Shown here one piece after another: positions 1 through 28,983 of a stretch of 64,000 nucleotides of DNA; the stretch's first letter is position 1, and every line of letters begins with the position of its first letter. The position numbers and the translations under genes are program-made. Below the pieces are notes generated by a model. That model did no database searches. It saw only the letters and a program-made list of their open reading frames with translations, and was not told the origin of the DNA. Where the stretch lies: the NCBI GenBank assembly GCA_008477525.1, contig SPDT01000004.1, forward strand, positions 4,340,001 to 4,404,000, in the 5' to 3' direction. The DNA is from Hypomyces perniciosus (Eukaryota > Ascomycota > Sordariomycetes > Hypocreales > Hypocreaceae).

Positions 1-88
1 CCAAGTCTCTCAGACCAGATCGAACGGCAGACGAAACCGACTCGAAGACCTGCTCAATGCGCGGATAGCGCCGTCTCCACGGACCTTT

Positions 89-1240: not shown

Positions 1241-2025
1241 GCCCGCAAAGGGAGGCTCATCACCGTGAATTGGATGAGCACCTGTAGAGAGGGAGACTGG
1301 ACATAATGCATGACAACCCTGGTATGACTTTTGACAGCACACAACAGATGAAAGCTTTTTTGCATTGCAGGCGTTTAGGGGAACACGGCAAAGGGGAAGG
1401 GGACTGGTTAGGGAAAGGGTGGCTGGCTTTCATATAGATGTTAGGACTCGAGCATGACATGAAAGATACCACAAGGGGACTCGGGGCATGGAAAGGGGTC
1501 TGGATCCTTTTTTTTTTCACTTTTCATCTGTCTCTTATCGTTTTGCGTGGAAATGTGTCGCTGATGAGAGTATCTCATGTCGTCCATTTCCCCGTTCGTG
1601 TCGGAGGGTATAATACTTGGCTGGCATAAAGATCCTTGAACACCCTGTAAATCGAGATACAATATCTCTGATGCCAAGGAGGATCGAATTCAGTAGGCCA
1701 CTCTGGGGTGGAAAATACAGCCCAACCCAATCCAAAAAAAAAAAAAAAATACAAATCCTACTCGAAATGGGGAATGATTCTAGGAGCATACATGCACCTC
1801 CCAAAAGCCATGTTATGACCACTGAAAGATAGATGTGCCAAGCGAGTATCTTATTCTCGGTATAACCTCCAGCGAAAGAGACATGCAAACCACATATCCT
1901 ACATCATATCCTGATAAACTTCGTTTCGCTCTGTTTCCATACAATTGACAATTCCGTTGCTCATGAATCCACCAACTCCAAAAACCACCTTGTAATGCAC
2001 CATAAAATCCTGTAATGCTTGGGCA
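1241..2025. other. Intergenic region between convergent genes
   Basis: It holds the 3' flanks of the two converging genes. I see only homopolymer runs (T-run near 1509-1519, A-run near 1735-1749) and no convincing gene. Confidence 0.6.
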
Positions 2026-4050: not shown

Positions 4051-4361
4051 TGCGAGAGTGGCAATGGGAATACCGAGCAGATGCTCTGGATGGGTGTTGT
4101 GCCGGACATTGCTCGGTGGTTGGCGTTGTTGGTGTTTGTCGTGGGGTTCGGAGGACGCGATGGCTAAACAACAGAGGAGAGAGTGACGCGAGAGGGGAGC
4201 GCCATCATGTGACCATACACGTGACATTACCGAATCACTGCCTTGAGATTCGAAGTAAGACTCATGTCATGATTCATCTTTATGAGCTAGAAATAGCATT
4301 TTAAATGTGAATATATGTGGCTGCTCTGCCGTGCCATTGCTTAAAAATATCCAATACTAAC
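4051..4361. other. 5' leader/promoter of the coiled-coil gene and 3' flank of the reductase gene
   Basis: It contains a CACGTGAC sequence near 4217-4224, an E-box-like palindrome. Nothing else is evident. Confidence 0.4.
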
Positions 4362-5439
4362 TCACTTCTCCAGAGGCTCAACGGAAGGATCCCACGTGCA
4401 GGGACTATACTCAGTCGTCATAAGATCCTTCACCTCATCATCCGTCAGCTCAAAATCATATATCGCCGCATTCTCAACAATGCGCTCCGGTTTTGTACTC
4501 TTCACCAGCGGCCCATAGCCCTTCTGCAAGCTCCACCTCAGGAGGATCTGCGCCTCTGTCTTGCCATACTTTTGTGCCAGCGCCACAAGCTTGGGATCTC
4601 CAAATCGCCCGCCGCGTACGATAGGGCAGTAGGCCTGGAGGGCGATGTTCCTCTCACGACACCAGCTGACAATCTCGTCCCGTACAATCCATGGGTGAAA
4701 CTCCCACTGACCTACGGAGATGACGCCTCCTTTACCAGGTCCACCACGCTGAACTTCGAGTTCCTTGATGTACGCCTCCAGCTCATTGAGGTGGTGCACG
4801 CCGTAGTTAGATACGCCAATGGAGCGTACCTTGCCTGCCTCGACGCTCTCGACAAGGGCTTTCCACGCACCCTTGCGGTTCTCAATACCGCCGTAGGGCG
4901 CGTGGATAAGTACGAGATCGAGGTAGCCCAACTTGGTATCCTCAAGGGCAATGTCGACGAGCTTCAGCGTGTTTTCGTAGCTGAGAGGATACTGGCGCAT
5001 GGGGACTTTGGTGGTGAAGAAGACTTGTTCGCGGGGGATACCAGAGGCGGGAATGCCTGCCGCACAAGGGCCTTGGTTGCGGTATGCGGAGGCAGAATCG
5101 ATCTAGCGATTGATAGCTGTCAGAATGGGTACTTGGCGTGTTTGGTTCGAGTATGGGAAGAACCAACATGACGGTATCCGACTCTCAGGGCCTCTTTGCA
5201 CACTTCGGCGCCAATCTTACTGGGACTGGAGTAATCATCAGTAACTGCAGGTTATCGAAACGGGTTGACGATCGATCTATTGAGGTAATAACTCACGTTT
5301 GGTAAACCTAGCCTCATTGTCAGTATATTCAGCTTGAAGCCATGAGGACATTCGGTGCACGTACACCAAACCCAAGGAGTGGCAGCTCATAGCCAGAGTT
5401 GAGCTTCACGGTCGATTGCAATGTGAATTTGGATGCCAT
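4362..5439 (-). CDS. Aldo-keto reductase, four exons
   Basis: This is an NAD(P)H-dependent aldehyde/ketone reductase of the AKR superfamily; the substrate is unknown. Exons on the minus strand are 5439-5365, 5307-5297, 5225-5168 and 5102-4362, totalling 294 residues, which is normal for the family. Splicing rebuilds the family N terminus: LPLLGFG, then VYQTPSKIGAEVC, then VGYRH, then the catalytic Asp in IDSAS, Tyr in AYRN, Lys in TTKVP and His in LIHAPYG. The segment GKVRSIGVSNYG and the C-terminal NADP-binding region around LVKSTKPERI are also present. The 11 nt exon 2 is unusually small but is needed to complete the conserved GVYQTP motif. The expected active-site residues are all present, so the gene looks intact. 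Confidence 0.92.
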
Positions 5440-5891
5440 TCTGCGAAGCATGAGGCTGTGACTTGACGGGCAAATGTATGGTGAGAAGAGACAAGGATAT
5501 GTTGTGCAAGCCTAGAACTCCGGAAACATGACGCCATGAGCTCAATTGGAGATTATTAATACTACTGCTAACCTATAAGTCTAACCCCACCATTCAAACA
5601 TATTAATTCACAACTCATCCAAGAGCGGCGAAGTCATGATTCATCCACCATATTTCGGCGTTTAGACAACGCCAAGCTCGTTCATGTCCAGCATATATAC
5701 GAATTACGGAGTAACATCACTCATCAAAAGATCTGTCATCTTGAACTGGTTTGACGTTTCAATCCTATCAGAATTTCTTATCCTTAGTGTTGACCTCCTG
5801 CTGGGTAGGCAACCGCTATATTCCAACGCCACATGATGCTTCGCAACAACTTTAACCACGAGATAGTACCTATGACTTATTATAATTTTCT
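5440..5891. other. Intergenic region
   Basis: Promoter of the reductase gene and 3' flank of the Dom34 gene. One TACGGAGTA element is present near 5705. No gene is seen. Confidence 0.5.
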
Positions 5892-7224
5892 CTAGATAAC
5901 GCTATCAAGCATGTCCAAATCTTCCTCTTCATCTCTTCTCGCACCGTTACCCACTGGAGCCTGCTCCTCCTCTTCTTCCTCTTCATCAAGATCCAACATA
6001 GGGTAATTCAAAATGGCCGCAATATCACCCATCATCTTGAGCCGCTGCCCGCTCTCATGATCGCTACTTAATATCCTCGCTTCGCCTCCATCATTCTTAA
6101 CTTTATCAACCAACGCGACGTACTTTTTCCGCGTCGCCAAGTCCTGACTCCTGAAGAGCGAGTTGTTGATTAACAAGACCCCCCCGCCAGGGCCGACTGC
6201 TCCGTCTGCAACGGCCTTTTCGACGGCCTTTGTGCCGTACCATGCTCGTCCGTCGTCAAGTTTTAGTAGGCTGAAGAAGTTGTCCATGTATTGCGCCTCC
6301 TTTGCGTAGTTCATGTCTTTCATCTTGGCGAGGACTTCGGGGCTCTTGAGAACCTCGTTTAGACTGTGTATATGCCCTGAATTGGAGTGTATGACGGTCG
6401 CTTGCTTCGATACCGCGGTGAGCACTTTGTCTGACTTGTCGCGACCCTGTTTCGCAATGTATGCTTTGAAGTCTGTCGCAACGAACCCAGGACTGGCTAG
6501 TAGCAAAGGTCTTGATTCTGAAAAGTCGACTGCTCTTAGCATCGATTGCAACGTCTTCTCGAAGAACCGCCGTAGGCCGGCATCTTGATCGGAAGCGGTG
6601 TCGCGCTTCTTGGGCACCACACTCTCCACGCGAACCTTGAGGACGGTGCGGAACTGTGTGATTAGGCAGATATTTGCTAAGCCTTCTTGCATGACCACGG
6701 CGGCCATTGCGCCATTCTTATCATCTGACAGCGCTTGCGACAGGGTAGCTTTGGCGACGCTGTCCCAACCATCGGGTTTGACTACTGTAAAGGATCGGTT
6801 GACTTCGATGTCGAGGGTATGATGTGAGCCCATGGCCACATGGTCATTTTCAGCGGCGACAACGCCAGAGACGCGAAGGGAGGAGACTGCGGGATCGAAG
6901 AAGGTGGATTTGACGCGGACGGCGAGGTCTGTGTGGACTCGTTCAGCGGCTGGGACGCCTGTGCCAGGATTGATGTTGACGACTTTGCGGATGGCATGGG
7001 CGTGGACGAGGTCGCCGGGGACTATGAGGTTGTACGCATGCCACTGCATCGCATCGCATCACATGTTAGCAGAGTCATCATCTTGAAGGTGAGGACGGTT
7101 TGCGACAGAGAGAGATGGCGGGGCAGAACGATGCGAAACGTACCATATCCTCGGGGTCCTCTGGGAGGAGTGAGACCTGCTCATCCTCGAACTCTTTGGG
7201 TATGTGCCGCGAAACGAGCTTCAT
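5892..7224 (-). CDS. DOM34: Dom34/Pelota, ribosome-rescue eRF1 paralogue
   Basis: It acts with the Hbs1 GTPase in the cytoplasm to dissociate stalled ribosomes (no-go and non-stop decay), as known for the family. Exon 1 is 7224-7144 (27 codons beginning MKLVSRHIPK and ending PEDPEDM) and exon 2 is 7043-5892. The join gives PEDMWHAYNLI, the hallmark start of Pelota proteins, and a 410-residue product. The three eRF1-like domains are recognisable in order: an N-terminal Sm-like fold, a central domain (around VVMQEGLANICLIT), and a C-terminal domain ending near HESGQRLKMMGDIAAILNYP. There is no GGQ peptidyl-hydrolysis motif, as expected for Dom34 and unlike eRF1. The C-terminal tail is strongly acidic (a run of Asp/Glu). 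The intron has donor GTACGT and acceptor CAG. Confidence 0.96.
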
Positions 7225-8920
7225 CTTGACGATGAGCCCGAAAGCAGAACCAATGGGTTGGAGGCCTTGATAAAAGTGACTGATGTGAGTCGGCGCAAGA
7301 TAGGTAGATAGTAGATAGAGGATAGATGATAAAGTCTTGTGGCGAGCGCAGTATGGAGTAGTGGGGGTGGCGTTTGTTGCGTGGCGCGTGACTCCAATGG
7401 CGTGGCGGCTTTTTGTAATACTAGTACTACTAATACTACTAATACTACGGAGTAGCAACTGTATGAGTTGATGATTATTGGGGGGGAAGATGGTTTTTAT
7501 ATTATCGGTTGAGGCGATGCCGAATTCAAGGTTCATGTAGAATAAGATCTTTCTTCTTCTTCTTCGACGTACTTCATATATATATATATATAATTCTACA
7601 TTTTGCGACTCTAATCTTAACCTTGCTCAACCCCTTGCAGCCATTGCAACTTAACTCAATTTTGGAACATGCCCTAAATCCACTCCTTTCATGCTGGCCC
7701 TTGTCTCAGTAGTAACGAAGAAAAACGTTGGCATTCCCGAAAAAGGCCAAGACAAATCCATATTATTGGACATTGTGTTGATTTAGTTATGATGTTTCGC
7801 AGGAGATGCATACAGGGCTGGAATGTCAAAGGCGGGTCTGGGACATTCACATTCAAGACTTGGCCCCACGTGGGAGGTCATCGCCAAGTAAACTCAAGAG
7901 ATCTGGGAGAAAGAAATAAAATGAACAGAATATATACTATTTGTCAATAAAGACAGGACCTGTGAATCTTGATCTCGGCATCAAGCCAAGGCGGGACGGT
8001 GCGGATTAATGAAACGACCGGCATATCGTCATACTGGGCCGTATAGAGGGTGTCATTATTGCTTCATTGTGTAGAGAACTCGAACAAGCTTATCCGTCGA
8101 TCTGCGGGGGAATAACTCGATTAGGCACACGTTCTTTGTGCTGGTACGTTTGCGTTATCTGGCACTGTACGAAGTACATACGAAGTATTATCGTTCCATG
8201 ACGGAGTCGAGGCAAATTGCCGTCTTATGACACCAACTCTACCAGAAGCGGCGTTGTGGCGCTCGACAGTTGTGATACGTCATTGGCGATCTTCCCGCCC
8301 GTTTTGTGGTGACGTTGGCAGTCGATAAAGATACATACGAAGAAGAGATATTTCCCGCTTATCAATACTATTCCTAGAACTTGTATAGGTAGTATGTCGA
8401 CATACCTTACTTTGTAGACACACGGAAAAACTCCGTAGTACATACTTCGTAGGCAGATAGATATAAATGATTGGGTTCAGTTTACTACCTTTATCAGTTA
8501 AACGATACGAGACATGTCGCCTCGTGCACAGCCCTTTTTTATCAAATGGTACCTGGAAAAGTGGATGAATTACGCACGCACAGCCGCGTCATCGAATATT
8601 CTTCCACTCTTCCGCCTGGAGTACTCGTACATAGTAGTATAGTAGAATGCAGGGACATTTGACGATTTATGGAGCTGTCCTTACGGATTTTGGGCAAATT
8701 CTAACGGTGAGGAGAAAACATCCATGTCAGCAGGTTTCTGGGGGCACAGCAAAGTACAGAGATTGGTAGGCAATGTGTTACATTCAGCCTGCTTTGACTA
8801 CGAGTAGTAATACTGAGAAGCTGGGCGAAGGGCCAAGAGCCAAGAGCCCCAAGATGGTGTAGGTATCCATGCAGCCACCATTGCCGATGTGCTGTAATTG
8901 GGAGGGAATAACTATCTATG

Positions 8921-8954
8921 TACGGAGTACTCCGTACGAAGTATATACTTCGTA
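8921..8954. repeat. Two overlapping perfect palindromes
   Basis: A 16 bp palindrome (TACGGAGTACTCCGTA, 8921-8936) overlaps by two bases a 20 bp palindrome with arm TACGAAGTAT (8935-8954). Related half-elements occur at 8168-8189, 8431-8452, 9205-9222 and 9489-9543. Confidence 0.85.
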
Positions 8955-9488
8955 AACGGATGATGGAATCACGGCCTTTCGTACGATTACTATTAATGTG
9001 TGATGTCGTCAGAAAACAAAAATAGGGGATCAATAGTAATAGTACTAGGGCTAATACTATTGGCATCACTTCGTAGTAGTAGTACTAGTACTTCGTGCTA
9101 TGTATGAGATGCGATTACGGAGTTCAACCGCCCGCTGGAACTTCGGTCCGGAGCACCAAAGAATGTCAGTATTGTAGATACGCGTAACCAATGCTTATGC
9201 AGGTACTCCGTACGAAGTGCCTCAAGATCTGACCCGATAGGTAAGGTACCTAGGCAGAGGTTAAAAAACAAGGGTTACAACAAAGAAGAAGCTCACACAG
9301 CCACGAGCTTGTTTTTTTTTTTTTGTACTTTGCAGCAGTATTTGACCGGCTTAATTAATGCCCTCATCATGGCAAAATTCGTCAAAATGAAAAAACCCTC
9401 CCTTGTAGGGCGGGGCTGGGCAGCTGGGGAACGTGGACCTCTGGTGGATTCAACGTTGCCTTAGAGCCTCGGCATGTCTAGTGCTGAG

Positions 9489-9543
9489 TATGGAGTACGG
9501 AGTACGAAGTACATGCAGACATACTGTACAAAGTACTCCGTAC
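9489..9543. repeat. Cluster of GGAGTAC/GTACTCC half-elements
   Basis: Several copies of GGAGTAC, TACGAAGTAC and TACTCCGTAC lie in both orientations within 55 bp. They belong to the same motif family as 8921-8954. Confidence 0.7.
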
Positions 9544-10056
9544 CTGCTGCCCGTGCAACAGGTCCTACGTCGTCCATTCGTTCAGGTCTATTTAGCCAAA
9601 AAACTCTCTTCTTGCGCCATAGGCAGCAACAGCAACATCCTTGACCAAAAACGTCGCCTGATCTCATTATCCTTTCCTATTTCATACGGCATATTACCCT
9701 AAAGTGTAAGGCTTGCAGAGTATATATCTTTGCCTCCCTCCCGTTGCCTGCCTGTCTCGCTTGTATCGCGGTAAAATAACCCATAATATTAGCAGCGACA
9801 CATTGCTCCACTGTGCCGGCCACCTCCAAACACGAAACATCGCATTCGGCTTCGAGCGAGAGGATTGCAGCAGTTCGTTTTATCCGAGAAGCAAAAGAAA
9901 GGGGCAGCCTCATCCTTCACCTGGTCTGCTGGTCTGCTGGTCTCGGACGAACCGGAACATCAAGCTCGTGCGTTTTGTTGTTCGCAGTGGTGAAAGAAAA
10001 AGAAACGGCCCACTCGGAGACTTGACCACCCCCGTATTCCGTTCTGCGGTTGTCGC

Positions 10057-10098
10057 TGGTCACTGGTCACTGATCACTGGTTACTGGTTACTGATCAC
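10057..10098. repeat. Six tandem copies of a 7-mer, TGRTYAC
   Basis: The copies read TGGTCAC, TGGTCAC, TGATCAC, TGGTTAC, TGGTTAC and TGATCAC with no gaps. The array sits about 360 bp upstream of the WD40 start codon. TGATCAC/GTGATCA makes part of each unit near-palindromic. Confidence 0.9.
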
Positions 10099-10455
10099 TC
10101 GCTGTAGGAGAGCGGTAGTACTATTTTGGACGGTTGAAGGGTCAAAGGGCCAAAGTGTGTGTGGTGGACTCGTGACTCGCATTCGGAAACGGCTTTCGCA
10201 ACCTGCACTCGACTCCGTCCTTTGAGTACTTGGACCAGAATAGGCCAGTCTTACCAGCCTCTTTTTCAAACTCCCCGTCGGGGGGGTTTAGTCTTGGCCT
10301 CGGCCTCGGCCTCGAACGCCCTCTATTATCCCGACTTCGTTCCTTTTTTTTTCCTTCTGTTTTTGGTACAATCTGCATATTATCATCACCAGGAATTCGG
10401 ACTGCCGCGACTCTCCGCGGCGCTGCGGACCATCCAACTCTCTCGCCCTGGCAGC

Positions 10456-10503
10456 ATGGAACATGTCTCTCCAGCTATCCTCCTCGCCTGTCATGCTGGG
10501 TAA
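10456..10503 (+). promoter_or_regulatory. Out-of-frame uORF overlapping the WD40 start codon
   Basis: ATG at 10,456 opens a 15-codon frame ending TAA at 10,501-10,503. It overlaps the presumed main ATG at 10,463 in another frame. If transcribed, it would force leaky scanning or use of a downstream ATG such as 10,522. Confidence 0.55.
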
Positions 10504-13430
10504 CGGCCAATTGGCCTCCAAGATGGACTTTGCCAACGCAGCTTCCGGGTCTCCCGATTCCCGCACTCAAACTCCGCCGCCAGTCAGGAGGTCAACTACT
10601 CGTCTATCCCGAAACCTCGCCACTCAGAATGGAAAGGACAGGGAAACTAAGAGCTTGTCGAGGTCGCTGTCTACTACTCCGCCGGCGGCCACTGCTCTGG
10701 ACCCTCTGAGCACAGTATGCATCTCCTCCTTTGGTCGTGTCATGTTACACTGTCGAACTGACAAGTTGCTTGCAGCAAATCTTGCTGCGAACCAACATTG
10801 GTGGCGATACTTCCCTCGCACAACGTTTGCGCAACGCCACCCAGCCCGAGAGCCCGACTCCCGACGCTGTCCAACAGCAGAGCATCGACAACAGCCCTAC
10901 CAAAGTTGCGAATGGATTGGCAGACTTTCCGAAAGAGCGAAGGTATTCACGCAGCCGAGCATTCCCGCAAGGGTTGAACCCCCCCCCCACAGCCATGCTG
11001 ACATGTCGCAGGAAAGGAACATCATTTCTCAGTCGCCTGGCCATGCGTGGCGCATTCAAGAAGAACGATGACGACATGCCCGACTCCGACTCCGAACTGG
11101 GTGACCTGCGCACCGAAGGCAGCAGCGCAAAAGCTCCTACATCTGTGATCAGCGATGGCGGCGGCTACATCCCTTTGCACAAGGAACCGCCCCGTTATAT
11201 CCGAGTCAAATCGCACAACACCAAGCGTCGAGACTTTAATCGCCTCTTCCTAGCCCAAGAGCTCTTGGGGTCCAAGCCATCCAAGGAAAACGAGCCGTCG
11301 CAGGGCCGCGCGCCGGCAACAGCAGTAGGGACGAAGATTTTAAAAGCTGGCGACGCAATATGGGCGGCCGAATTCAGTGTCGATGGCCGCTATCTAGCTG
11401 TGGCGGGCAAGGACCAGGTGGTTCGGGTTTTCGCTGTCATTACAACGGATGAAGAGCGCAGGGCGCATGAAGAGGAAGAGGAGGCAGATAGGGAGTCGCA
11501 GGGAAAAGGAAAAGCAGAGAGGCTAAGTGCCCCCGTATTCCGCAGTAAACCGATTCGGGAATTTGAGGCGCATACAGGTGAGGTGCTGGCTTTGTGCTGG
11601 AGTAAGAACAATTTTCTCCTCTCAACATCGATGGACAAGACTGTTCGACTGTGGCATATCAGTAGGCAAGAGTGTCTTGCCGTCTTCAAGCACAGTGACC
11701 TCGTCACCTCGATTGCGTTTCACCCCACGGACGATCGGTTCTTCCTGGCGGGCTCGCTGGACGCCCAGCTCAGGTTATGGAGTATACCTGACAAGGTGGT
11801 TGCCTTTTCTGCGCCAACAAATGAGTTCATTACGGCTGTGGCCTTTTCTCCAGATGGAAAAACAGCCATTTGTGGTTTGCTGACCGGTATGTGCTTTTTC
11901 TTTGAGACCGAAGGGCTCAAGCTCCAGTTTCAGATCCATGTGCGATCGTCCAGGGGAAAGAACGCAAAGGGGAGCAAAATCACCGGCATTAAGACTGCAG
12001 TGATTCCCCCGAACAATGGCGATGTCAAGGTACTGATCAGCTCCAATGATTCACGCGTCCGAATTTACAGCCTCAAGACACGGATGCTGGAGGTCAAGTT
12101 CAAGGGCTTGGAGAATCAATGCAGCCAAATACACGCCCGCTTCAGTGACGACGGAGCCTACGTGATTTCTGGAAGCGAAGATCAAAGAGCATACATCTGG
12201 AACATGAACCCGCCCGAGGCCGAGATGAAAGATCGACAACCGTATGAGTGCTTCGACGCCCACCCAGAGGTTGTCACCACTGCACTCATGGCACCAATAC
12301 GGACGAAGCAGTTATTAGGTGCTTCAGGAGACCCCATTTACGACCTGTGTAATCCGCCTGCAGTCTTGCTGCGCAGCCTGGACGAGGCGACGATGAGCCA
12401 GTCAGAACTCTCAGAGGGAGGGACAGAAATTCACCATCCACCACCCAGCATAAAGAAACCGGAAGAGAGCCCTGCTTATATCGAGCGGTCAAAGCACCTC
12501 GACGGCAACATCATCGTCACCACAGACAGAACCGGCACTATCAAAGTCTTTCGACAGGATTGCGCGCATAAGAAGCGTCAGCAGTACATGTGGGAATTAA
12601 GCTCGAAATTCTCTAGCAAAGTGAATGGCTTGAGACGAAGCGGCAGCGTAATCACAAGAACAAGCGGAAGCCAATCCCGGCGCGCATCGTTGACATTTAA
12701 CGTACCTCAGACCCAGCATTCAGCAGACAGGATTATGAGCTGGCGGCGGGATGTTGATGAGGAGGGACGGCTTGAAACGCCACCAAGGAATGAACGCTCA
12801 GTTTCCCCAATGAAGGCTCTTCAGACGCCGGTCAACGTCTCAACGTCAAATCTCTCAGCCGAGATTCGGAAGCAGCCATACATGGCAGGCTCACCGGTTC
12901 GCTCTTATAACCCCACGAGTCCGACTAGCAGCGTTCGAACTCGGCGGTCAATGAGCACGATAAATCACGGGCCGACGCAGCCACCAACTCCGAGCTTTAG
13001 CCTGATCCCCGCGGCTGAGTCGGATGAGCAGGTCAAGGAAGGGAGCTTCTGGAATCTGAGTCGATGGAGAGGGGGCATCTCGGGATTGAGGCATTCGATG
13101 AATGCCAACCCTCCCACAGAGCCGAGCCACAGCAGCGACTCCACGGTTGCTACAGGCGGCCTTTCTCGAAACGGGAGTGTGGTCAAATCGGCTGAGAAGG
13201 CAGCTCCGCGGAGGAGCCTTGGACTTGCAACAGACCTAAGCAGGCTTAAGGTCGTAGACGAACATACCCGGAGGAAGTCTACGGGACTCACCACCATCCG
13301 GTCCCAATCCAATGCGAGGAGGGACAGGGTGATAGAGGAGGAAGAGCCACAACAAAAACAAGATCGGTTATCGCTCAAGAAGCGGACCGACTCGGGAGTT
13401 GGCAGGATGAGTGGAGACTTGGATGAATGA
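10463..13430 (+). CDS. WD40-repeat protein related to WDR44 / yeast Dgr2
   Basis: It is a probable scaffold. Animal WDR44 binds Rab11 and functions in recycling-endosome traffic; the fungal role is less defined, so function here is inferred. Exons are 10,463-10,714, 10,776-10,942 and 11,012-13,430, giving 945 residues. The second intron (10,943-11,011, 69 nt) preserves frame and includes a C-run followed by GCTGAC and GCAG; removing it gives KERRKGTSFLSRL. Features in order: a Ser/Thr/Pro-rich N terminus; the family block PPRYIRVKSHNTKRRDF and FLAQELLG; WD repeats starting at IWAAEFSVDGRYLAVAG, then LCWSKNNFLLSTSMDKTVRLW, SIAFHPTDDRFFLAGSLD and later repeats including YVISGSEDQRAYIW; and a long disordered, Ser/Arg-rich tail with many potential phosphosites. 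A charged Glu/Lys insertion lies between the first blades. The start codon is uncertain because of the overlapping upstream ATG. Confidence 0.9.
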
Positions 13431-14005
13431 TTGATGATAACACCCCGACATTTATGGCTTCAACATATGAGGATTGATGAACTTTGGAGGAGGGATTGGT
13501 TGCATTTTTTTCTCTTCTTTTTTGGAGAAGGTGTTGAGCGGTGGGTTCATGTCATGTATTATTAGCATATGCCTTTCTTTCCCCCTTTTGCATGATGGCA
13601 TACGGAGTTTTTTTTTTTTTTTTGGGGGGGGGGGGGGGGGGGAAATCGAACATGAATCTTTATGTGTGACGGGGGCATTTGAAAAAGGGGGCCATTTATG
13701 TCATGCACTTGGAAAACAGGACATGCTGAGGAGCTTCTGGCGCATTTTAGACAGGGAGTTGCTGAGTTCAAAGCGATGCTTTGCAATGGGGATGCATTCA
13801 ACATGATGCACACTGAATGGCGCATGAATGAATACTTTGGGAGTCTTGCTTGACTTGAACGATGTTTATTGGCTTCGGAATTGTGACAAACTCCACTACT
13901 GTTTTTCTCCCCTCAAATGAAGAGAGTCTTTGGCTGTTGGCCATGTATTTCCATGGTATCCTCTGTGACCCTTTTACCATTGCCGTATCATGATGTTTAT
14001 TCGAT
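13431..14005. other. Intergenic region between convergent genes
   Basis: 3' flanks of the WD40 and thioredoxin genes. The only notable content is the T-run/G-run tract at 13,608-13,642. Confidence 0.6.
13608..13642. repeat. Homopolymer junction T(16)G(19)
   Basis: Sixteen consecutive T directly followed by nineteen consecutive G, in the 3' region of the WD40 gene. Length is likely polymorphic and sequencing-sensitive. Confidence 0.9.
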
Positions 14006-14442
14006 TTAAAATTCCTCATTCGTCGATAGCTGCGCCCACACAACAACATTAGCGTCTTGTTCCATTCTTCTCCGCAATCGGACATACTCACAGGTTTCTC
14101 CTCCGCGGCCTTTGCCTTGGTCGCATACGTCTGCGCCAACTTCTGCAGCGCAGGCGGATTCGCACCGGCCAGAGTATCCGCCTTCTCGCCCTTCTCGAAG
14201 ATGAAGAAGGCCGGGATGCTGCGGATGCCTAGCTCGAAGGCGAGATCGGGCACCTCATCGGTATCGAAGCGCGCAAAGGCGTATTGCTCGGGGACGGAGA
14301 GGGTGGTGGCGTGTTTGTTGAAGAGAGGCGAGATGGCTTTGCAGGGGCCGCACCAGACGGCGTGGGCTTGGAGGGCGACGTAGGGGGTGGAGGCGATGAG
14401 GGCGTCGAATTGGGCTTTGGTTTTGATGTCGATGACGGACAT
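14006..14442 (-). CDS. Thioredoxin
   Basis: A small cytosolic dithiol-disulfide oxidoreductase. Exon 1 is 14,442-14,092 (117 codons) and exon 2 is 14,029-14,006, adding LSTNEEF and a stop, for 124 residues. The active site WCGPC is at residues 30-34 (AVWCGPCKAI), followed by the expected FARFDTDEVPDLAFELGIRSIPAFFIF, which contains the conserved cis-Pro segment. The intron (donor GTGAGT, branch GCTAAT, acceptor GCGCAG) is short. Ignoring it would give a false 214-residue frame with an unrelated tail. No signal peptide is seen, so a cytosolic or nuclear location is likely. It is slightly longer than classical thioredoxins because of a Lys/Ala/Glu-rich C terminus. Confidence 0.95.
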
Positions 14443-15302
14443 TTTGGGCGGTTTGGGGGTGTTGATATGTATTATTAGTGTTATGGTAGTAGTAGTAGTG
14501 GTATGTGGTTGAGAGGTTGAAGAGTGGAGAGGTTTGGAGGAGATGTAGTAATAATAGGTAGTTTAGTTATAATAGTGCGGGCTTTACGGAAAGGCGTGGA
14601 ATGGATCGAGGTTAAGGATTAAATAAATATGTGATGGAACTTGTAAAAGACTTGAGATGTATACAGAATTAGTAGTAAAACGTTGCAGAATTAAATACAC
14701 TGACTCGTCATGGATATATATATATGTGTGTGTGTGTGTTGTCGACAAGTACTATCACCAATCATCTCTCTGACAGCAATTACCAAAAGCTACCTCATGA
14801 TTTGGAAGCATCGACTGACAAATGCCATCATCGCGCCAATGCGATCAGTTTGCGATCCAAATTCCAAATTCCAAAAAAAAAGCCGAGGCATCGAACTGCA
14901 GCCGAAAGCGGGGCGCAAATTGCGTGCTTCTGCTGACAAAAAGAATCCTTATTGGATAAATGGATGACGCCGTTTCGGATGTCGCGAACGGATTGTACGG
15001 CAGGTCGGCGTTAATAATACGAGGGAGGTCGTATCCAGCATTTGTTAGTTACTTGAATCCTTAATAAAGCCCTGTGATCTCTTAGTGATCTTATATAATA
15101 CTACGAGTACTAATAATACATACGTTTCTTGATCCCAATTCTCCAATCATCCCATGATGGTTCAAGCCATGACTGCCAATTACCTTATGTGTCGATCATT
15201 CAGCCGCACTCCGGGACATCTACAGCAGCTTTCAAATCCAAGTGTAGGTAATATTAAAGCTGTGGAAGCACATCTTTACAAACTACTTCGTACCTGTAGA
15301 GA
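14443..15302. other. Intergenic region with TA/TG microsatellite
   Basis: Promoter of the thioredoxin gene and 3' flank of the DUF2278 gene. It carries a compound (TA)n(TG)n microsatellite at about 14,715-14,739 and AT-rich sequence. I see no gene. Confidence 0.6.
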
Positions 15303-15980
15303 TCATTCATCATCTCCAACTTGCCTCAAAACCTCCCCAAACAGCGGCCCATCAACTTGACCTCCATCATCTGTGCTCATCGCCTGTGACGCAAACGCAA
15401 TAAAAAATGCCTCCCAGTGGCCGTCCGCGTACTCAACAATAATCCCTCCGTCCTGATAAATCCCATTTGAGCTTCGAAAGCGGCCTGTGCTGCCCTGGTT
15501 CATGTGCACATCATGCACTCCATCCTTGCCTCCGTACTGTTGTCCGTACAAGTATACAGTGGCCTTGGCCTTGATGGCTTTCTGGAAGAATGGATCCAAG
15601 AAGTCGATGATGTCGTTTTGCTGCCCAGGTACATCGTGAGGCACGATCCGGCCTTGCTCAGCATCGATGACATCGCCACGCAGAAGATCTAGGGCTTTGC
15701 CATTGGGCGGACCGCGATCGCCGCGGGAGACGGCGTGCCAGCCCAACTCCAACGGGCCGAGGACATCCTGCAGAGGGTGTTTGAAGTCGTCGAATTGCCA
15801 GAACACAAGTCTCGAGTCCCTGTCAAGGGACTTGACGTTGATGGCAGAGGAGAGTCTCTTGGAGCTGACGCCATCTTCGAAGCGAAGCGAGCCGTGCGGG
15901 CTTTGGGAGTCTTGGTCGGATCGCTCCGCTGTGAAGCGGGTTGGGGTGGCTTTCCAGACGCCGTAGTCTTTGATGGGCAT
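15303..15980 (-). CDS. DUF2278 (YukJ-like) protein
   Basis: The biochemical function is unknown; the family occurs in bacteria and fungi. The single exon of 225 residues begins MPIKDYGVWKA. It contains the family's recognisable blocks: INVKS, LVFWQFDDFKHPL, GRIVPHDVPG with NDIIDFLDPFF near the middle, ATVYLYGQQYG, DVHMNQGS.GRF, IYQDGG, and DGHWEAFFIAFASQ near the C terminus. There is no signal peptide or membrane segment. The conserved His, Asp and Asn in the HDVPG, HMNQG and DGHWEAF motifs could be functional, which is only an inference. The gene appears intact and intronless. Confidence 0.88.
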   Translation of the reverse strand: MPIKDYGVWKATPTRFTAERSDQDSQSPHGSLRFEDGVSSKRLSSAINVKSLDRDSRLVFWQFDDFKHPLQDVLGPLELGWHAVSRGDRGPPNGKALDLLRGDVIDAEQGRIVPHDVPGQQNDIIDFLDPFFQKAIKAKATVYLYGQQYGGKDGVHDVHMNQGSTGRFRSSNGIYQDGGIIVEYADGHWEAFFIAFASQAMSTDDGGQVDGPLFGEVLRQVGDDE

Positions 15981-17115
15981 GATTAAAAATGCTTTTCTGA
16001 ACGAGTTACTTAAGAGGAAGAATATTGAATAGGTAGCTCAGGATACTGTCTGTTGTAGATGGGTTGAAGTCCTTGGTCTGAAGAAGGCTGAGGTAGGTGC
16101 AACATCGACTTCATTTATACTCGCAACTACTTCGTACCCACCAACCTCTGCTTCTTTCTTCACATTGCCTCATCATAAAGTTCAGTCACATATTCCAAAA
16201 TCTTACTTTCCTCCCTTCCTCAGTCCTCAGCCTCAGCCTCCGGCCTTGTGGCGTGAGGCATCTGCATCCTCTCAATCATTCCCCCAATAAATGTAGCCAT
16301 TCCCCAGGGATCGAGCAAATCGTAGCCAGAGCTGATTGACATGTGTCGAAACTAGTGGCAGTCCTCGGAATGAGGCGCAATAGTCTTTCCTGTTGCAGTC
16401 CAAGTTTGAAGGTTTGCTTCTTTCAGCTCCCGTCGTAGGGCTGAGCGTGGCTGTGGGTTGATTGGCTTACAAGGGACTGAGGTTGTTGATCACTAGACTA
16501 GACTATTGATACCGAAAGTGCTAATTGAAAGGCAATGGAGTTAGAATTCGTCGAATTCTAAGCTGCCAATGCTCATCTCGGTCATAGAGGCGGCGGCCTC
16601 ACGGGAGGATCCCAGCGGCCTCTGTCAGCTACAGCTTAATTCAGTCATCATCTTCTCAAATGCAGCACATTTCATGCTCTTGACAAATACTACCTGCCAT
16701 TCCGTTTTCATGAGCATTGGCTTTTAATTGTGATGTTCCTTGGCATATGATGAACACTTGTCCTACCGGAAGTTATCTAGGAGTAGGTATACTACAGAAC
16801 ACCGGTACGGAGTAAATGGTCTCACGGCGCTGACGACACCTTTGTCATGGAGAGATAGGCGAACATGAGTTGCAACATGAGTTTAATTGGCTAACTAGAT
16901 GTCATTTAAGCGTGTTGATTGCGAACTCGCTAGATGTCCAGCATCATCTTCAGCACAAGGAGAGTTCCTGTATTCCATGTGCTTCATACCCCGTCCCCCC
17001 CCCCTTGAGTAACTCCCACAATTCTTTAATTCTTTCTCGGGCTCATCTTTTTGGAACTCAAGTTGAGACTCCTGGGACATTTTTGACAGTACCGGCGGCT
17101 TCGCCAAGGGCGCCT
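15981..17115. other. Intergenic region
   Basis: About 1.1 kb with the DUF2278 promoter on the left and the 3' flank of the repeat-peptide gene on the right. TACGGAGTA-type elements occur near 16,131 and 16,804. I find no supported gene. Confidence 0.55.
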
Positions 17116-19322
17116 TTAGTCAAGGAGGGAGAAGAATGGCTTAAGAGTATCGACGATTTCGGCAATAGGACGATCGCTGACGGCAGGATTTCCTTCTGCT
17201 TCTCCTGCTTCTGCTTCTCCACCGCCAACTGGACCAGCAGCTGTGTCAACGGCATTTGTTGTTCTCTTAGCAGCATGGCCAGGCGAGCCTCCATCTGTAC
17301 CGGCGACATGACCAGCAACGCCAGCTCCTGCGTCAACCGTATCTTTAGGCACACCCGTGCCTGATCCAGAGGCACCGCCAACAGTATCAGTGGCTCCCAC
17401 AGCGGATGAAGGATCGACAGCTGTCACGTCGTCGACCGGGAGACCAGCGTCTGGGATGGCGATGCCAACGTCAACCGGCAATGGGCATTCAATTTCTGGT
17501 GTGTCGATGCTCTTCGACCGAGATTTATGGACTGGAGGATGGACAGGCGCTTTAGCGGACACATCACCATTGGGTGAAGAAGTGACAGCCATTTCAGCCA
17601 TACTGGTCATTTTGGCAGCGTGATCTTTCATCATCTTGCCAGCCCCCATGGTCATAGCACGCTTCATGTGTTTACCTTTCGCAGCACTGGTACTGTTAGC
17701 TAAAGAGGGAGAGCAATGGTGATATGGAGTAAACCTACTCCATCATCATCATCTTCGTCTTCATGGCCTCTTCCATTGTCATCGCATGAGAGCGCTTTGG
17801 GTGCTCAACGCTCATAGTACTATTGTTGTTAGCCATCAAGCCAAAGGTCTGGTGGCATGAAGCGAACTTACTCCATCATCATCTTCATAGCCTCCTCCAT
17901 GCTCATAGCATGAGAACGCTTGGGGTGCTCAACGCTCATAGCACTATTGTCGTTAGCCATCAAGTCAGAGCCCCGGTGACTTAAAGTGAGCTTACTTCGT
18001 CATCATCTGCATAGCCTCCTCCATATTCATAGCATGAGAACGCTTGGGGTGCTTAGCATTCATGGCACTAGTATTGTTAACCTTACGAGACATCTCAGCT
18101 CTGGCGACAATGGACTTACTCCATCATATTAACAGCTTCCTCCATTTTCATAGCTTGAGAACGCTTTGAGTGCTCGGCGCTCATGCCCCTATTATGGTTA
18201 GCCATAAGGAGCTCCGGTAACTATCCTAGCTGTAAACTTACTCCATCATCTTCATGGCATCCTCCATTGTCATAGAATGAGAACGCTTCGAGTGCTTAGT
18301 GCTCATAGCACTACCGTTGTTAGCCATAAAGAACTTTGATAACCATGTAATACAGTGCACTTACTCCATTACCATGTTCTTCATGGCTTCCTTCATTTCC
18401 GTAAAACGAGAACTGTCTGACCGCCCAGGGTCGTTCAAGGCCCTAGTGTTGTTAGCCAAGAGTCAGAGATGTCTCTGGTAGTAATAGTAGTAATAGTATT
18501 TATTAACTTACTTCATCATCATCAGGTAAGTCTCCATGCTCACAGGGTGTTTTTCGTTGACGTCACTAGTATTATTAGCTAAAGCGTCATAGATATCGTG
18601 ATTTGAAGTAAACGTACTCCATCATCTTCATAGCTTCCTCCATGTTCATAGCATGGGAGCGTTTTGAGTGATCACTCCTCATAACACTAGTACTGTTAGC
18701 CATGAAGTCAGAGCCCTGGTAGCTCTTCCTAGCTATAAACTTACTCCATCATCATCTTCATGGCCTCCTCCATTGTCATGGCATGAGAACGCTTTGTGTG
18801 AGCCCTCATAGAACTACTATTATTAACACTATACAAGACATCTTAGCTCTGGTGACAATGAACTTACTCAATAATTATCTTGACAGCTTCCTCCATTTTC
18901 ATCGCTTGAGACCGCTTTGAGCTCTCTCTCATCATACCACTGGCGTTGTTAGCACTATGTCAGATATGTTAGTCCTGGTGACAATAAACTTACTCCATCA
19001 TCATGGAGCCAGCCATGTCCATAGTATGGGAACGCTTTGAGTGCTCGCTGTTCATGCTCCTATTATGGTTAGCATTGAAAAGTTGAGCCATGTAATCATC
19101 TTAGCTGTGGACTTACTCTGTGTTCATACCAGCTGCAGACATGCTCATGTCACGCTTGTGCTGGTCCGAGAGCGACCCGGCCATGCTCATATCGATGTCA
19201 CTCGCACCGGCACTGGCAGTGTTCTTGGCGCAATTATCCATGGTGTTTGTAGCACCCATAGGCGCCGCCAAGGTGTTGCCAGCGACGGCGGCGAGGAGAA
19301 GGATGGCCGTGTTGGTCTTCAT
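17116..19322 (-). CDS. Secreted multi-repeat peptide precursor with kexin (Lys-Arg) sites, 13 exons
   Basis: Exons on the minus strand are 19322-19117, 19059-18994, 18939-18868, 18813-18745, 18686-18618, 18565-18512, 18442-18365, 18310-18242, 18188-18120, 18067-17996, 17943-17872, 17819-17739 and 17686-17116. All introns are phase 2 (52-69 nt), and the total is 516 codons with the stop, with no internal stop. The product starts with a clear signal peptide (MKTNTAILLLAAVAGNTLA). Exons 2-12 each encode one repeat: D-A-M-S-x-E-H-(S/P)-K-R, then SHAMxMEEAMKMMME. Lys-Arg occurs in exons 1-5 and 8-13; exons 6 and 7 have lost it. The last exon adds a basic repeat, then a Gly/Ala/Asp/Pro-rich acidic tail with one more Lys-Arg. 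The family role is inferred: Golgi Kex2 cleavage would release about 25-residue Met/Glu-rich peptides, as in fungal KEP or gigA/dikaritin-type precursors. No UstYa-like modifying enzyme was seen nearby. Exon acceptors were chosen for a consistent TAG/CAG just after GCTAAC. Confidence 0.82.
17739..19059 (-). repeat. Tandem exon-plus-intron repeat array (unit about 120-127 bp)
   Basis: Eleven successive units, each a 54-81 nt exon and a 52-69 nt intron, resemble one another in both exon and intron. Introns share GTAAGT donors and a GCTAAC/GTTAAC element 7-9 nt before the acceptor. The array grew by duplication of whole genomic units. Confidence 0.88.
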
Positions 19323-20333: not shown

Positions 20334-22167
20334 TCAGTTTGTACTACTGGGAAACCTAATAACATATAGCATTATGCAGGCAAGAGCAGACAATCCCCCG
20401 CTGAGAATAAACGGTAGTCCAACCCAAAGTCCACCAAGATATAGTCCCTCCTTGAACGACGAAGCCACAAGCGGACCCGCCATTAGGGAACCGACCGTCT
20501 CGAGTGAACTCATGCAGTTGAAGAGCATAGCATGGTTACCTTTTACGAAGGATGCCACTAGACTCTGTAGCATCACGTTGTAGGCATTTCCGAGATAGAA
20601 GATGACAAGTCCTATTTAACAGATTCAGCATTTTGTGTTGGTATGTAGTTGAAGGCTTGGGTAACTTACCAAATATCATGACGGGCGCACTACTAGACAG
20701 ACAAATGATGAATGCGCCTATCGCCACGAAGGCACAGCTTACCCGGGCGATGGTAAGATCTTTGGCGAGTGGCGAAATGGAGAGGCGCGATGACATGAAA
20801 TGACTGGCGGTTGGGAGGACAACCAGGAAGAGAAGAAGACAGATTCCCGTTTCTAGAGAGACGAGATATCCGGCCTTGAGATAGATTAGCTTGTATCATC
20901 AGTTCGAGTACCAAATGGGGCCGACCTACCTCGGACCAAGACCATCCATACTTGTGCCTTGCAAACTGATTCAGAATCCTCAACTGTTGCCACGAGAGTG
21001 TCATGGTCACCATTGTGAGCATCAGAACAAGAACATGGGAATTGCCGTGGCGGGCCAAGAACAGAGTGTTCTCCCTCAAACGGAGAACCCCCGCTTGAAT
21101 ACGACCTTGGAGGCCACTGTCCTCTGTCATGATCCTGGCGCGCACGTCCGCGGGCGGTTCTGCTTCCTCGACATCGTCGTCTGCCATATCTGGCCGCCGT
21201 TTGTGGCGAATTATCTCTGGTAGAAAGAATGAGAATATGGTAGATGCAACAGCGCTACCGAAGCTGAGCTGAAGTGGAAGCCAGACATCGTAGCGCATCA
21301 GATGTGAAGCGATGAGACTTGCTAGAAGTCGAATGAGGAGGCTGAGAGCCGCAAAGTAGGAAAATACAGTAGACCTGCAACCGAACTGTTAGAATCGATA
21401 CAGAAGATACCGGACGAAGTAAAAATGCTCTCACCGGTGTGATGGATGTGTCAAGTTGGATAGACCGGCATAAATCACGGCGCCTAGAACTGACGGACCG
21501 CCTCCGATCAAGGTGAACAACGGGGCTATCCATGTAAGTCGTACCGGGAAGATTTTGGGCCACCGACCTGTAGTGAGGTCAGAATTTCCCTTTCTTTTGT
21601 CATGGAAGTCGTGTGAAAGACTTGCAAACAGTGATGCTGAATCCACGAGCGAGTGTCATGCCAGCAGCACACAAAATCATGACCACCTTGTGCCCATAGC
21701 GATCTGCCACAAAGCCGTACGGTATGGCAGCAAGAAGACCTAAATGCGCTTAGAAAAGATCCCGGAGGCTGAAGTATGGAAAGAAATGGTGTTGACAAAC
21801 CTGGTATCAACGAAATCGTGACTTTCCACCCCAACAGCAAGGCCAGCTCGCTTTGAACAGCCTTGTCATCGCCGTATTGAGGCAAGGCGTCGGTTCCAGA
21901 ACTCTTATGAATATCTTTGCAGACGATGCTCTCGAGAATTTCGTTGATTGGAATGTGCTCCAATACGCTCCCCGCTTCAACAAAGGCTATGAAGATGGCG
22001 TAGAGCGCGACGTGAACCAGAGGGAGCCGCCAGATGCCACCTTCGCCGTTGTCACTGTCTCCGTTTTGCAAGAGAGAGGATTCTTCGTTTCTTAGTTCCG
22101 TATATAGAAGTTTGAGACGATTCTTTACGTATCTGATGTCCATGATTCTTTCGCCACTGCTGTACAT
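20334..22167 (-). CDS. Major facilitator superfamily transporter, six exons
   Basis: A plasma-membrane or vacuolar solute transporter; the substrate is unknown. Exons are 22167-21801, 21739-21647, 21567-21435, 21374-20930, 20874-20670 and 20611-20334, joining in one frame to 506 residues. The first membrane helix (WRLPLVHVALYAIFIAFV) follows a hydrophilic N terminus. The MFS motif A is clear after splicing, as GFVADRYGHKVVMI between helices 2 and 3. A charged central loop (about residues 260-300) separates the two halves. The C-terminal helices end in LSALACIMLYVIRFP. The boundary of exon 2 (donor GTGGAT) is the least certain. An alternative upstream first exon cannot be excluded, since the frame is open above the ATG at 22,167. 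The gene is on the same strand as, and about 1 kb upstream of, the repeat-peptide gene. Confidence 0.85.
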
Positions 22168-23491
22168 TGTTCCTGACTCTGCTGATTTGCAAAATGCAGC
22201 TTCTCCTCTCCTCTCCTTGACCCGACCAAGATCTGAGATGATGAGTTGTACATACTTGGTAGGTGGATATCTCAACGGAAATTAGTAGCCCGCATTGGTT
22301 GATTGCAGTGGGAATACCACGTAGATGTCTCGACCAACAGGACGGACATTTGGGCACAATTCTCGTCTTGGCCAACACATTATGACGGTGTTCAGGCCCG
22401 GGAGTCGAGTTCCGGTATATTGGGACCGACCGGGTAAGAAGCGAAGCCATTCCCGCTCGAATGAGGCTCTTCCAAGCCCCTCAACAAATTGAGATATCCA
22501 AGGAGGCGTCTGGTGTTTTTCAAGGTTAGCTGTTCATAATTGTAACGTATGATGAATATATGGATAATATGGAGCAGTTCCCGTTTTACATACCTCTCTC
22601 CTTTCAGGAGATGTTGACCCAACAGCGTGCCTCCTCCTTTTCATCTTGGGTATGCTCGCTGCAGCGGGCGGAACCTGGTGGTCCTCATCATGTTCGCCTC
22701 GGCATGTGAAGGAGTGATGGCAGACTGTTGAACAAGCTGGTTAAAATACAGACAATCCCAGTTTGGTGAGATCAATCTATATCGTTTGCGATCCCTCTCT
22801 TTTGGTCGCCCGCTTGCTCGGTTGAACTTGAAGGGCGACGAATCCACGGCCAGATGACGACTGATCATCCGGCTGTATACGGAGTAGCCTCAGATACAAG
22901 CCACCATCTGTATAGGCTGCTAAGCCCCAGGTAAGCGTCAGCAACCCGCGGCTAAATACGAAGCAACCATTTGGACTTGTCCTGCCTGTCCTCTATGCGG
23001 AGTACTCCGATCGCCGTATTGAAGCCTGAAGTCGCACAGCACTTCTCCGGAGATACGGAGTAATAATACATACCTACCAATAATTGCGACATCGGGTCAA
23101 TCGCAAGGGGGATCCACTGTTAGCGAGGGCATGCTGCTCTGTAGTGCATATGGCCAGGCAGGTTTAGTGGCCCAGAAGCCTAGAGGGCCCTAGACAAGGC
23201 CCCCCCGAACACCGAGAAGGCTCGTGCTCTTCATTCCTCTCGTCACCTGAGCCACCGGCCCGACTCTTCCACAATCCATCTACACAACATTACGAGTACA
23301 GAGTATATATTTGCCGACTGCGGTCGGCATCAATTCGCGGCATCGCGACATCTCCCCAACAAAAGCGCGTGCGACAACCCTCGATTATCGTCTCGTATCA
23401 CAGCAATCGCTCTCCCGCTTCTCCCGCGCTCTAAAGCCGTCTAGATAGTTCAACTATCACGGTTACGTTACGTTACGTTACGTTACGCACG
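22168..23491. other. Intergenic region between divergent MFS and NMNAT genes
   Basis: About 1.3 kb bidirectional promoter region. It contains TACGGAGTA-type elements (near 22,877, 23,001 and 23,053) and the TTACG array listed separately. No gene is found. Confidence 0.55.
23463..23487. repeat. Five tandem TTACG copies immediately upstream of the NMNAT start
   Basis: A perfect pentanucleotide array ending four bases before the ATG at 23,492, so presumably in the 5' leader. Confidence 0.9.
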
Positions 23492-27176: not shown

Positions 27177-28833
27177 CTACTTTATCTCCTTGTCTAAATT
27201 TGCCGGCGACGCCTCCGAATCCGTCGCCGCATTATGATCTCCAACAGCCACTCCAACCGTTACTCCCTCACTATTCGCACCACCTCTTACCGGCGGTCCA
27301 GTGAAGTTCTTTCGCGCATACGCAAAATACCAAATAAATGCGATGGCCGCAAAGCCTGCAAACACGACCGACGCGTAATTCATCGTCGTAGCATCCACAG
27401 GCAGTGACACAGGCATACAGAAGATGACCACCGCAAAGACGATCCAGATGACGCAGATGACGTTGATAATGGGGCCGAGGGTATTCCCCAGGGGAAAGGG
27501 GGAGTTGCGGACGGCAGAACGGCGTTGGACGAGGTTGACGAGGACGGGAACTCCGTATGATGCGTTGAGGCAGATCGTTGCCACGCCGGTAAAGGAGTTG
27601 AAGGCGGCAGATGAGCCAAAGTAGATGCATCCGAGGAGACAGTCTACCACGGTGGAGAGAACGAGGGCCCAGATAGGTGCGTCGAGGGTCTTGTTGACCT
27701 GTCGCCAGAGTTTGTATCCAGGGATAGCGCCGTCTCTGGCGAATGCATATGTGCACCTCGACGCGGCAGTCAACGCGCCGATACCTGCAAACATGAGGAT
27801 TCCCAGAATGAGGAACAAGAGACCAAAGCCACCAGCCGCAGATCCAGTGACGGTCTTGAAGAGGAGGCCGATAGGTTGGGAGTTGGCGACGCTGAGGAGA
27901 GCCTGCACGTCTGGGAGGACGAAGAGCAGGGGGATGAGATAGATGACACCGGTGATGCCTGCGGCGACGACAGAGAGAACAATGGCTTTGGGGACTTCGC
28001 GCTCGGGGGATTGGACTTCCTCACACATGGCGGCGACCATACCGTAGCCTGTGAGTGTGTAGGCGGCTGATGAAGGACGTCAGTATGTGAGATGTTCAGA
28101 TATTTGAGATGGGATGCTTACCTTGGAGCAAACCAACGAAAAAGGACCAGCCGCTGGGCCATCCACTGGCAGAAGCATCATAGTGAGCGAAGACGAATTC
28201 GCCAGAGCGACGGCTCGGCGCCATGACAAGCAAGGTGACGAGAATAATGAGCACGCTGGCAGCGGTCCAGTATATGCAGATCTTGTTGATGAGATCCAGA
28301 TATCTCGACCCAAACGCATTCACCAGCGCGCACACCAGCATAACGGCCCAGAAACACAACACCGTCTGCCACTCGTTCGCCACAAAGTCCTCATTGAAGA
28401 TGCTGATCGCACTGAGAATGAGCTGCGCGCCCGAGAAATTGATGCTCAGCGTGACGGTCCAATTGCCCACGAGCGTGAGCCAACCGTCCACGAAGCTCAC
28501 GAGAGGCGCCCATTGCGGCGAGCTGAGCATGGCGGACCAGTAGTACACGCCGCCGGCTGTGGGGAACACGGCGCAGATCTCGGCCAGGGAGGCGGCGATG
28601 CAGACGGAGATGAGGGAGACGAAGATCCAGCCGTAGAGGACGGTGACGGACTGGCCGTTGGTGAGGGTGATGTAGAGGGTGGTGGAGAGGCCGAAGGGGA
28701 CGGCCATGATGGCGAAGGAGAGGCCGAGGATGGACATCATGGAGAGGTTGCGGGGAAGTTCGGCCTTGTAGCCCAGGGAGGCGAGGGCCTGGTCGGCGGT
28801 TTGGGAGACGATTGAAGCTCTGCGATCCTCCAT
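27177..28833 (-). CDS. APC-superfamily amino acid/choline/GABA-type permease
   Basis: A proton-coupled membrane transporter of the amino acid-polyamine-organocation superfamily, in the fungal GABA/choline/amino-acid permease group; the substrate is not predictable. Exons are 28,833-28,122 and 28,066-27,177 (intron donor GTAAGC, acceptor CATCAG), giving 533 residues with about 12 membrane segments. The N-terminal block runs ELPRNLSMMSILGLSFAIMA. AAGGVYYW-like AGGVYYWSAM follows helix 3. The sequence after the intron, AYTLTGYGMVAAMCEEV...PEREVPKAI, is the family signature, and SRCTYAFARDGAIPG marks the conserved cytoplasmic loop. The C-terminal tail is short and hydrophilic. The gene appears intact. 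Confidence 0.92.
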
Positions 28834-28983
28834 GGTGATGGTTTGTTGGTGTCTGACTTGAGATGAGTTGTGGTGGTGATGGGGTGGGCAATGGCCGAGA
28901 AGCCGGGCCGATTCAGACGTGAGTGAGAAGAATCAAGTATGGATATCGATTGGGGGATATCTATAATATCTTGCTGATACTCT

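Follow-up and report, generated by a model that had tools for sequence, protein, structure and literature searches.

A putative KEX2-processed repeat protein precursor of Hypomyces perniciosus encoded with one repeat per symmetric exon

A 64,000-nucleotide stretch of Hypomyces perniciosus DNA (the window) carries on its minus strand a gene, running from an ATG at 19322 to a stop codon ending at 17116, whose predicted product of 515 residues is best read as a KEX2-processed repeat protein (KEP), a precursor from which some ten peptides, rich in Met and mostly acidic, would be released; we put the probability of this reading at roughly 75%. Proteins of this kind are known in fungi. What appears to be new, within the searches made, is the arrangement of one repeat per symmetric exon with 12 phase-2 introns.

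Gene model and chance control

The coding span (17116–19322) comprises 13 exons and 1548 nt including the stop, joined in a single open frame with no stop codon or frameshift across 515 codons and 12 junctions. A sequence-only reading had proposed these coordinates, a single frame of 515 codons in 13 exons, and eleven repeat exons between phase-2 introns; the coordinates proved correct, the rebuilt model gave the identical number of codons, and all 12 introns, which delimit 11 internal exons, are in phase 2. Exon 1 (19117–19322) encodes an apparent signal peptide (MKTNTAILLLAAVAGNTLAA, assigned by eye), a pro-region, the first Lys-Arg (19152–19157) and half a repeat, and is followed by intron 1 (19060–19116, phase 2). 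Spliced together, the model then gives Lys-Arg-bearing repeats in exons 2 (18994–19059), 3 (18868–18939), 4 (18745–18813), 5 (18618–18686), 8 (18242–18310), 9 (18120–18188), 10 (17996–18067), 11 (17872–17943) and 12 (17739–17819). Exons 6 (18512–18565) and 7 (18365–18442) contain degenerate repeats without Lys-Arg, their frame and splice signals being intact. Intron 12 (17687–17738, phase 2, donor GTAGGT) precedes exon 13 (17116–17686), which encodes a partial last repeat with Lys-Arg (17659–17664), a tail rich in A, G, P, S and T with a second Lys-Arg (17263–17268), and the stop. The internal exons, 2 to 12, measure 66, 72, 69, 69, 54, 78, 69, 69, 72, 72 and 81 nt, all 11 being multiples of 3, and the introns 52–69 nt, with 5 of the 12 being multiples of 3.

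The donor is GTAAGT in 9 of the 12 introns and GTACGT, GTAAGC or GTAGGT in the remainder. All 12 introns contain a branch-site-like motif, [CT]TAA[CT], which reads CTAAC in nine. The A of this motif precedes the 3' AG by exactly 9 nt throughout, a uniformity that in introns 3, 4 and 12 is partly of our own making, because their acceptor AGs were picked by hand (the next in-frame AG, matching the other introns), placing the intron ends at 18814, 18687 and 17687. Tandem AGs lie upstream of these three acceptors, at 18817, 18693 and 17693, respectively, and splicing at them would lengthen the protein in frame by 1, 2 and 2 residues.

As a control, introns of 45–75 nt with donors GT[AG]NG and acceptors obeying a 9-nt rule were chained in the real region and in 300 dinucleotide-preserving shuffles. 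The real region contains exactly 12 acceptors under the 9-nt rule and yielded a chain of 12 introns with 1548 coding nt; the shuffles yielded no intron in 297 cases and one intron in 3, with at most 309 coding nt. When the acceptor rule was loosened, the chain in the real region still had 12 introns (1551 nt), and the shuffles gave none in 293 cases and one in 7. With its well-formed model and strong internal support, the precursor is probably encoded by a functional gene, and its introns would be spliced in vivo.

Repeat units, constraint and predicted processing

Since the end of exon 1 and the start of exon 13 carry partial copies of the repeat, each with Lys-Arg, beside the 11 internal ones, the array consists of 13 copies split by 12 introns. 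Lys-Arg occurs 12 times in the precursor: once in exon 1, twice in exon 13, and once in each of nine internal exons. It had been read as present in most repeats, which agrees with its absence from exons 6 and 7 only. In the nine internal exons with Lys-Arg, the first residue of the pair is number 7 or 8 of 21–26, and thus the coding sequence of each mature peptide would begin in one exon and finish in the following one, as the sequence-only reading had proposed. The fragments between the first and the eleventh Lys-Arg are 21, 22, 23, 24, 67, 23, 23, 24, 24 and 27 residues long, Lys-Arg included.

Nine internal units, namely exons 2–5 and 8–12 (6 and 7 were omitted for want of Lys-Arg), were compared for traces of selection. 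Pooled, they gave a pN of 0.194, a pS of 0.485 and a dN/dS of 0.29 (codon bootstrap 0.16–0.49), values to be read with the caveats that the pairs are non-independent, that there are few silent sites (none in Met) and that conversion between units would bias the estimate. Identity among the nine units is 0.83 at the first codon position, 0.82 at the second and 0.63 at the third. The Lys, Arg and Ser of Lys-Arg-Ser are invariant, with silent changes at each of the three codons, and several nearby positions vary; three Met columns are likewise invariant, Met allowing no silent change. Comparison of the units in these respects demonstrates constraint on both the peptide and Lys-Arg.

These data bear on the idea that the locus is a decaying gene or an assembly curiosity, which we regard as very improbable. 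Exons 6 and 7 are degenerate, and no relatives were found in the protein database or in the organism's own genome, as decay might predict; against this stand 515 codons over 12 junctions free of stops and frameshifts and a dN/dS below 1. As for an assembly artefact, the units have diverged and are not collapsed copies.

The precursor also agrees, in the features compared, with published working definitions of KEPs. The pipeline of Le Marquer 2019 (PMC6339444) calls for at least four fragments after cutting at KR or RR and for repeats making up at least 15 percent of the protein, and Umemura 2020 (PMC7329392) for at least three tandem repeats of at least 8 residues between Kex2 sites, none exceeding 100 residues. 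Such cutting of the precursor, after removal of 20 residues, gives 13 fragments; cutting at KR together with the aligned repeats gives fragments of 21–27 and 67 residues; and the repeats account for about 35 percent of the protein (9 units at a nominal 20 residues). The region taken by eye as the signal peptide has a Lys, a hydrophobic stretch AILLLAAVAG (mean Kyte-Doolittle value 2.7) and a TLA/AP end. One match to the proprotein-convertase P-domain (P_proprotein, E 5.7e-16) was found in the organism's own genome, which likely encodes a kexin-like protease. The KEP-type architecture that had been proposed is thus borne out by the apparent signal peptide (by eye), by Lys-Arg between the repeats, by the constraint on Lys-Arg and by the genomic P-domain match; the precursor is predicted to work like, and by its testable features is, a KEP.

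We envisage the following sequence of steps: i) the transcript would be spliced 12 times, each phase-2 intron lying between two successive Lys-Arg positions, ii) the 515-residue precursor would enter the secretory pathway, iii) a kexin would cut after each Lys-Arg, with the basic pair then being trimmed off, and iv) ten peptides would be released, nine of 19–25 residues and one of 65 spanning both degenerate repeats, in addition to tail fragments. The peptides would be Met-rich, Cys-free and mostly acidic, typically of the form S-[HQ]-A-M-x-M-E-E-A-M and so on.

A different fate, in which the secreted protein stays whole as an intact Met-rich cell-surface repeat protein and Lys-Arg is structural, is unlikely. 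Two internal repeats do without Lys-Arg and keep the frame, and a predicted kexin site of the fungal repeat protein SspN was found not to be cleaved in culture (PMC6374014), both of which this alternative would accommodate; however, Lys-Arg is placed once per unit, and Lys-Arg-Ser has remained invariant in nine units despite silent changes, with several nearby positions variable, which is better explained by a processed KEP precursor.

The residues following the 12 Lys-Arg pairs are DM, SH (7 times), SQ (twice), AM and TT. In alpha-type pheromone precursors the Kex2 site is described as being followed by a STE13 signature, XA or XP (PMC6339444); as no such signature follows any of the 12 pairs, a pheromone precursor was rejected. 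The M-x-M that follows Lys-Arg-Ser-x-x is invariant in all nine aligned units, and Gln replaces His in two of them. The nine cores starting with SH or SQ are devoid of Cys, and seven are net acidic (K/R minus D/E). In these same nine (the first core, which starts with neither, was left out), helical amphipathicity in the best 11-residue window exceeded that of 500 shuffles of the core itself at 0.06 or below in six and was unremarkable in three. The amphipathic cores (6 of 9) are suggestive, though not proof, of surface-active peptides such as Rep1, and our tentative first guess at the role of the products is that they act outside the cell as amphipathic, surface-active peptides comparable to those of Rep1. 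Signalling, and the binding of metal or oxidants by the Met clusters, rank below it as rather doubtful possibilities. Binding of copper or oxidants was left as speculation, Gln standing in place of His in 2 of 9 units and no copper protein being among the Pfam matches shown.

The tail, which had been described as acidic, is so only mildly, with 24 D/E and 12 K/R in 173 residues. Its single-sequence structure model had a mean pLDDT of 52.6, and because this confidence was too low, the model was not used in a fold search.

Searches for relatives and comparison with known precursors

The precursor had no match in Pfam. No homologue of the whole precursor was found at E of 0.1 or below in a search of 5.8 billion proteins, in which scores were computed for the 7994 candidates with the most shared words, and none at E of 1 or below for residues 318–470 (the final repeats plus some of the tail), for which 1026 candidates were scored. 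The same database covers fungi: the DUF2278 (YukJ-like) protein encoded near the precursor gene (15306–16037, minus strand) matched many fungal proteins, the best named ones being hypocrealean, with identities of 68 percent to Paramyrothecium and 65 percent each to Stachybotrys and Clonostachys, all genera of the Hypocreales. Bacterial relatives of the DUF2278 protein stand lower in its match list. Since genes with short exons may be miscalled, failure to find the precursor in a protein database says little about whether relatives exist; the precursor gene itself could be miscalled by gene predictors because its exons are of 54–81 nt.

A search of the organism's own 44.0-Mb genome returned 13 matches, 11 of which fall at the precursor locus, and the other two (E 0.311 and 0.369) are not significant; with only the precursor locus significant, a gene family in this genome was discarded. 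A second gene of the same layout did not emerge there either from the pattern GTAAGT..CTAAC..GTAAGT, which occurs at 14 places, 5 within the precursor gene and 9 as scattered singles, as compared with 8 places for the reversed pattern; the pattern would not pick up genes whose donors or branch sites differ. The statement that the peptide family is not recognised accords with the searches of Pfam, the protein database and the own genome, in none of which the Met-rich peptide type had a relative.

Epichloe is also hypocrealean. GigA of Epichloe and the dikaritins resemble the precursor in being secreted repeat precursors with kexin sites, and the sequence-only reading had drawn this comparison; they differ in giving cyclic products, whereas the precursor's contig has no UstYa match and its array a single Tyr. 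A cyclised, UstYa-dependent precursor of the dikaritin type, as for ustiloxin or epichloecyclins, would share the precursor plan, and the genome does have UstYa-family genes (17 exon-level matches). However, in a six-frame search of the genome, none of the 17 matches lies on the precursor contig. Nor was UstYa (DUF3328) found in the window when 22 of its 64 ORFs of at least 120 aa were scanned, small exons being covered by the six-frame search only. The single Tyr of the repeat array is in degenerate exon 6, not in a repeated core, and a YXIX motif is described for ustiloxin-type KEPs (PMC7329392). With no UstYa match on the contig or in the scanned ORFs and with Tyr so scarce, the dikaritin interpretation was rejected as highly improbable, and the earlier comparison lacks support on the same two points.

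KEPs have been reported in nearly all fungi (PMC6339444). In the collection of Umemura 2020, 2560 of 7878 KEPs stand alone without a homologue (PMC7329392), and orphan status is therefore common among them. The precursor is like them in having an apparent signal peptide and tandem repeats parted by Lys-Arg, and in lacking a homologue, as many of them do; it is unlike them in having one repeat per exon and 12 phase-2 introns. The main texts of PMC6339444 and PMC7329392 use no word with the stem intron, exon or splic, and a match to the repeat in their supplementary lists is possible. No fungal precursor with one repeat per exon was recognised in searches of the open-licence literature, supplements being outside this scope, which does not imply absence from print.

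Two other systems share parts of the plan, as judged from their descriptions. The multipeptide precursor of honeybee apidaecin has several exons, each encoding one functional, distinct peptide, and undergoes dibasic processing (PMC3415428). It is thus likewise a multi-exon, dibasic-processed precursor with one peptide per exon; in contrast, it belongs to an insect, is antibacterial and devotes one exon to each peptide, whereas each Hypomyces peptide would span a splice junction. In Ustilago maydis, Rep1 and Hum3 contain amphipathic repeats parted by Kex2 sites, and the Rep1 peptides form surface fibrils (PMC4617103). The amphipathic repeats with Kex2 sites between them are the common feature, and the greater length of the Rep1 and Hum3 repeats (31–55 residues) is the difference.

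Growth of the array, splicing and surroundings

The introns also bear on the origin of the repeats. Introns 2–12, taken whole with their signals, have a mean identity of 65 percent. When the signals were removed, 15 of 66 pairs of intron interiors surpassed the highest identity among shuffled pairs, 64 percent (mean of shuffled pairs 51 percent), and the other 51 did not. The most similar interiors are those of introns 3 (18814–18867) and 9 (18068–18119), which are 83 percent identical; among the exons, identity is 79 percent between 3 and 9 and 86 percent between 10 and 11. The likeness of introns and exons 3 and 9 is perhaps a trace of block duplication or conversion within the array. Homology of the units, as judged from these alignments, is demonstrated in the exons and weaker in the introns. 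The pair identities of exons and introns together make it most likely that each duplication copied an exon along with an intron, and possibly more than one such unit at once. The array would have grown by duplication of exon-plus-intron units of about 120–130 nt, a route made workable by the symmetry (phase 2-2) of all internal units. A KEP assembled from such symmetric units illustrates how arrays of this kind can expand when exons and introns are duplicated together.

The same anatomy raises the question of whether splicing is part of the mechanism, with exon skipping or intron retention setting the number and identity of the peptides. Any skip of an internal exon would keep the frame because all 11 are symmetric (2-2), and in this respect the proposal that skipping would drop one unit in frame holds. 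If retained, 11 of the 12 introns present a stop codon at their first nucleotide and would end translation right at the unit boundary, and intron 5 stops at nt 28. The exonic donor end is GGA or GAA at 10 of the 12 introns, which differs from the usual consensus. Splicing control is thus possible, given symmetric exons and immediate stops on retention. On the other hand, duplication of intron-containing units gives the same anatomy without regulation, and the near-uniform splice signals argue for constitutive splicing. We consider it distinctly unlikely that splicing sets the number and mix of peptides, so that one gene would give a condition-dependent series of secreted products; the layout makes such control of the peptide repertoire directly testable in one gene.

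Elsewhere in the window, two adjoining ORFs of 231 and 251 aa (20693–22281, minus strand), neither of which had a Pfam hit with an E value of 5 or less, may be two exons of the same gene. Neither Rfam nor a tRNA scan gave a match in the window. Two amino acid permease genes, at 27177–28932 (minus strand) and 37808–39510 (plus strand), lie about 9 kb apart in opposite orientation. An AT-rich block with 26 percent GC occupies positions 40001–64000; its TpA/ApT and (CpA+TpG)/(ApC+GpT) ratios are 1.49 and 0.56, as against 0.65 and 1.29 in positions 1–16000, values that we take to be the signature of repeat-induced point mutation.
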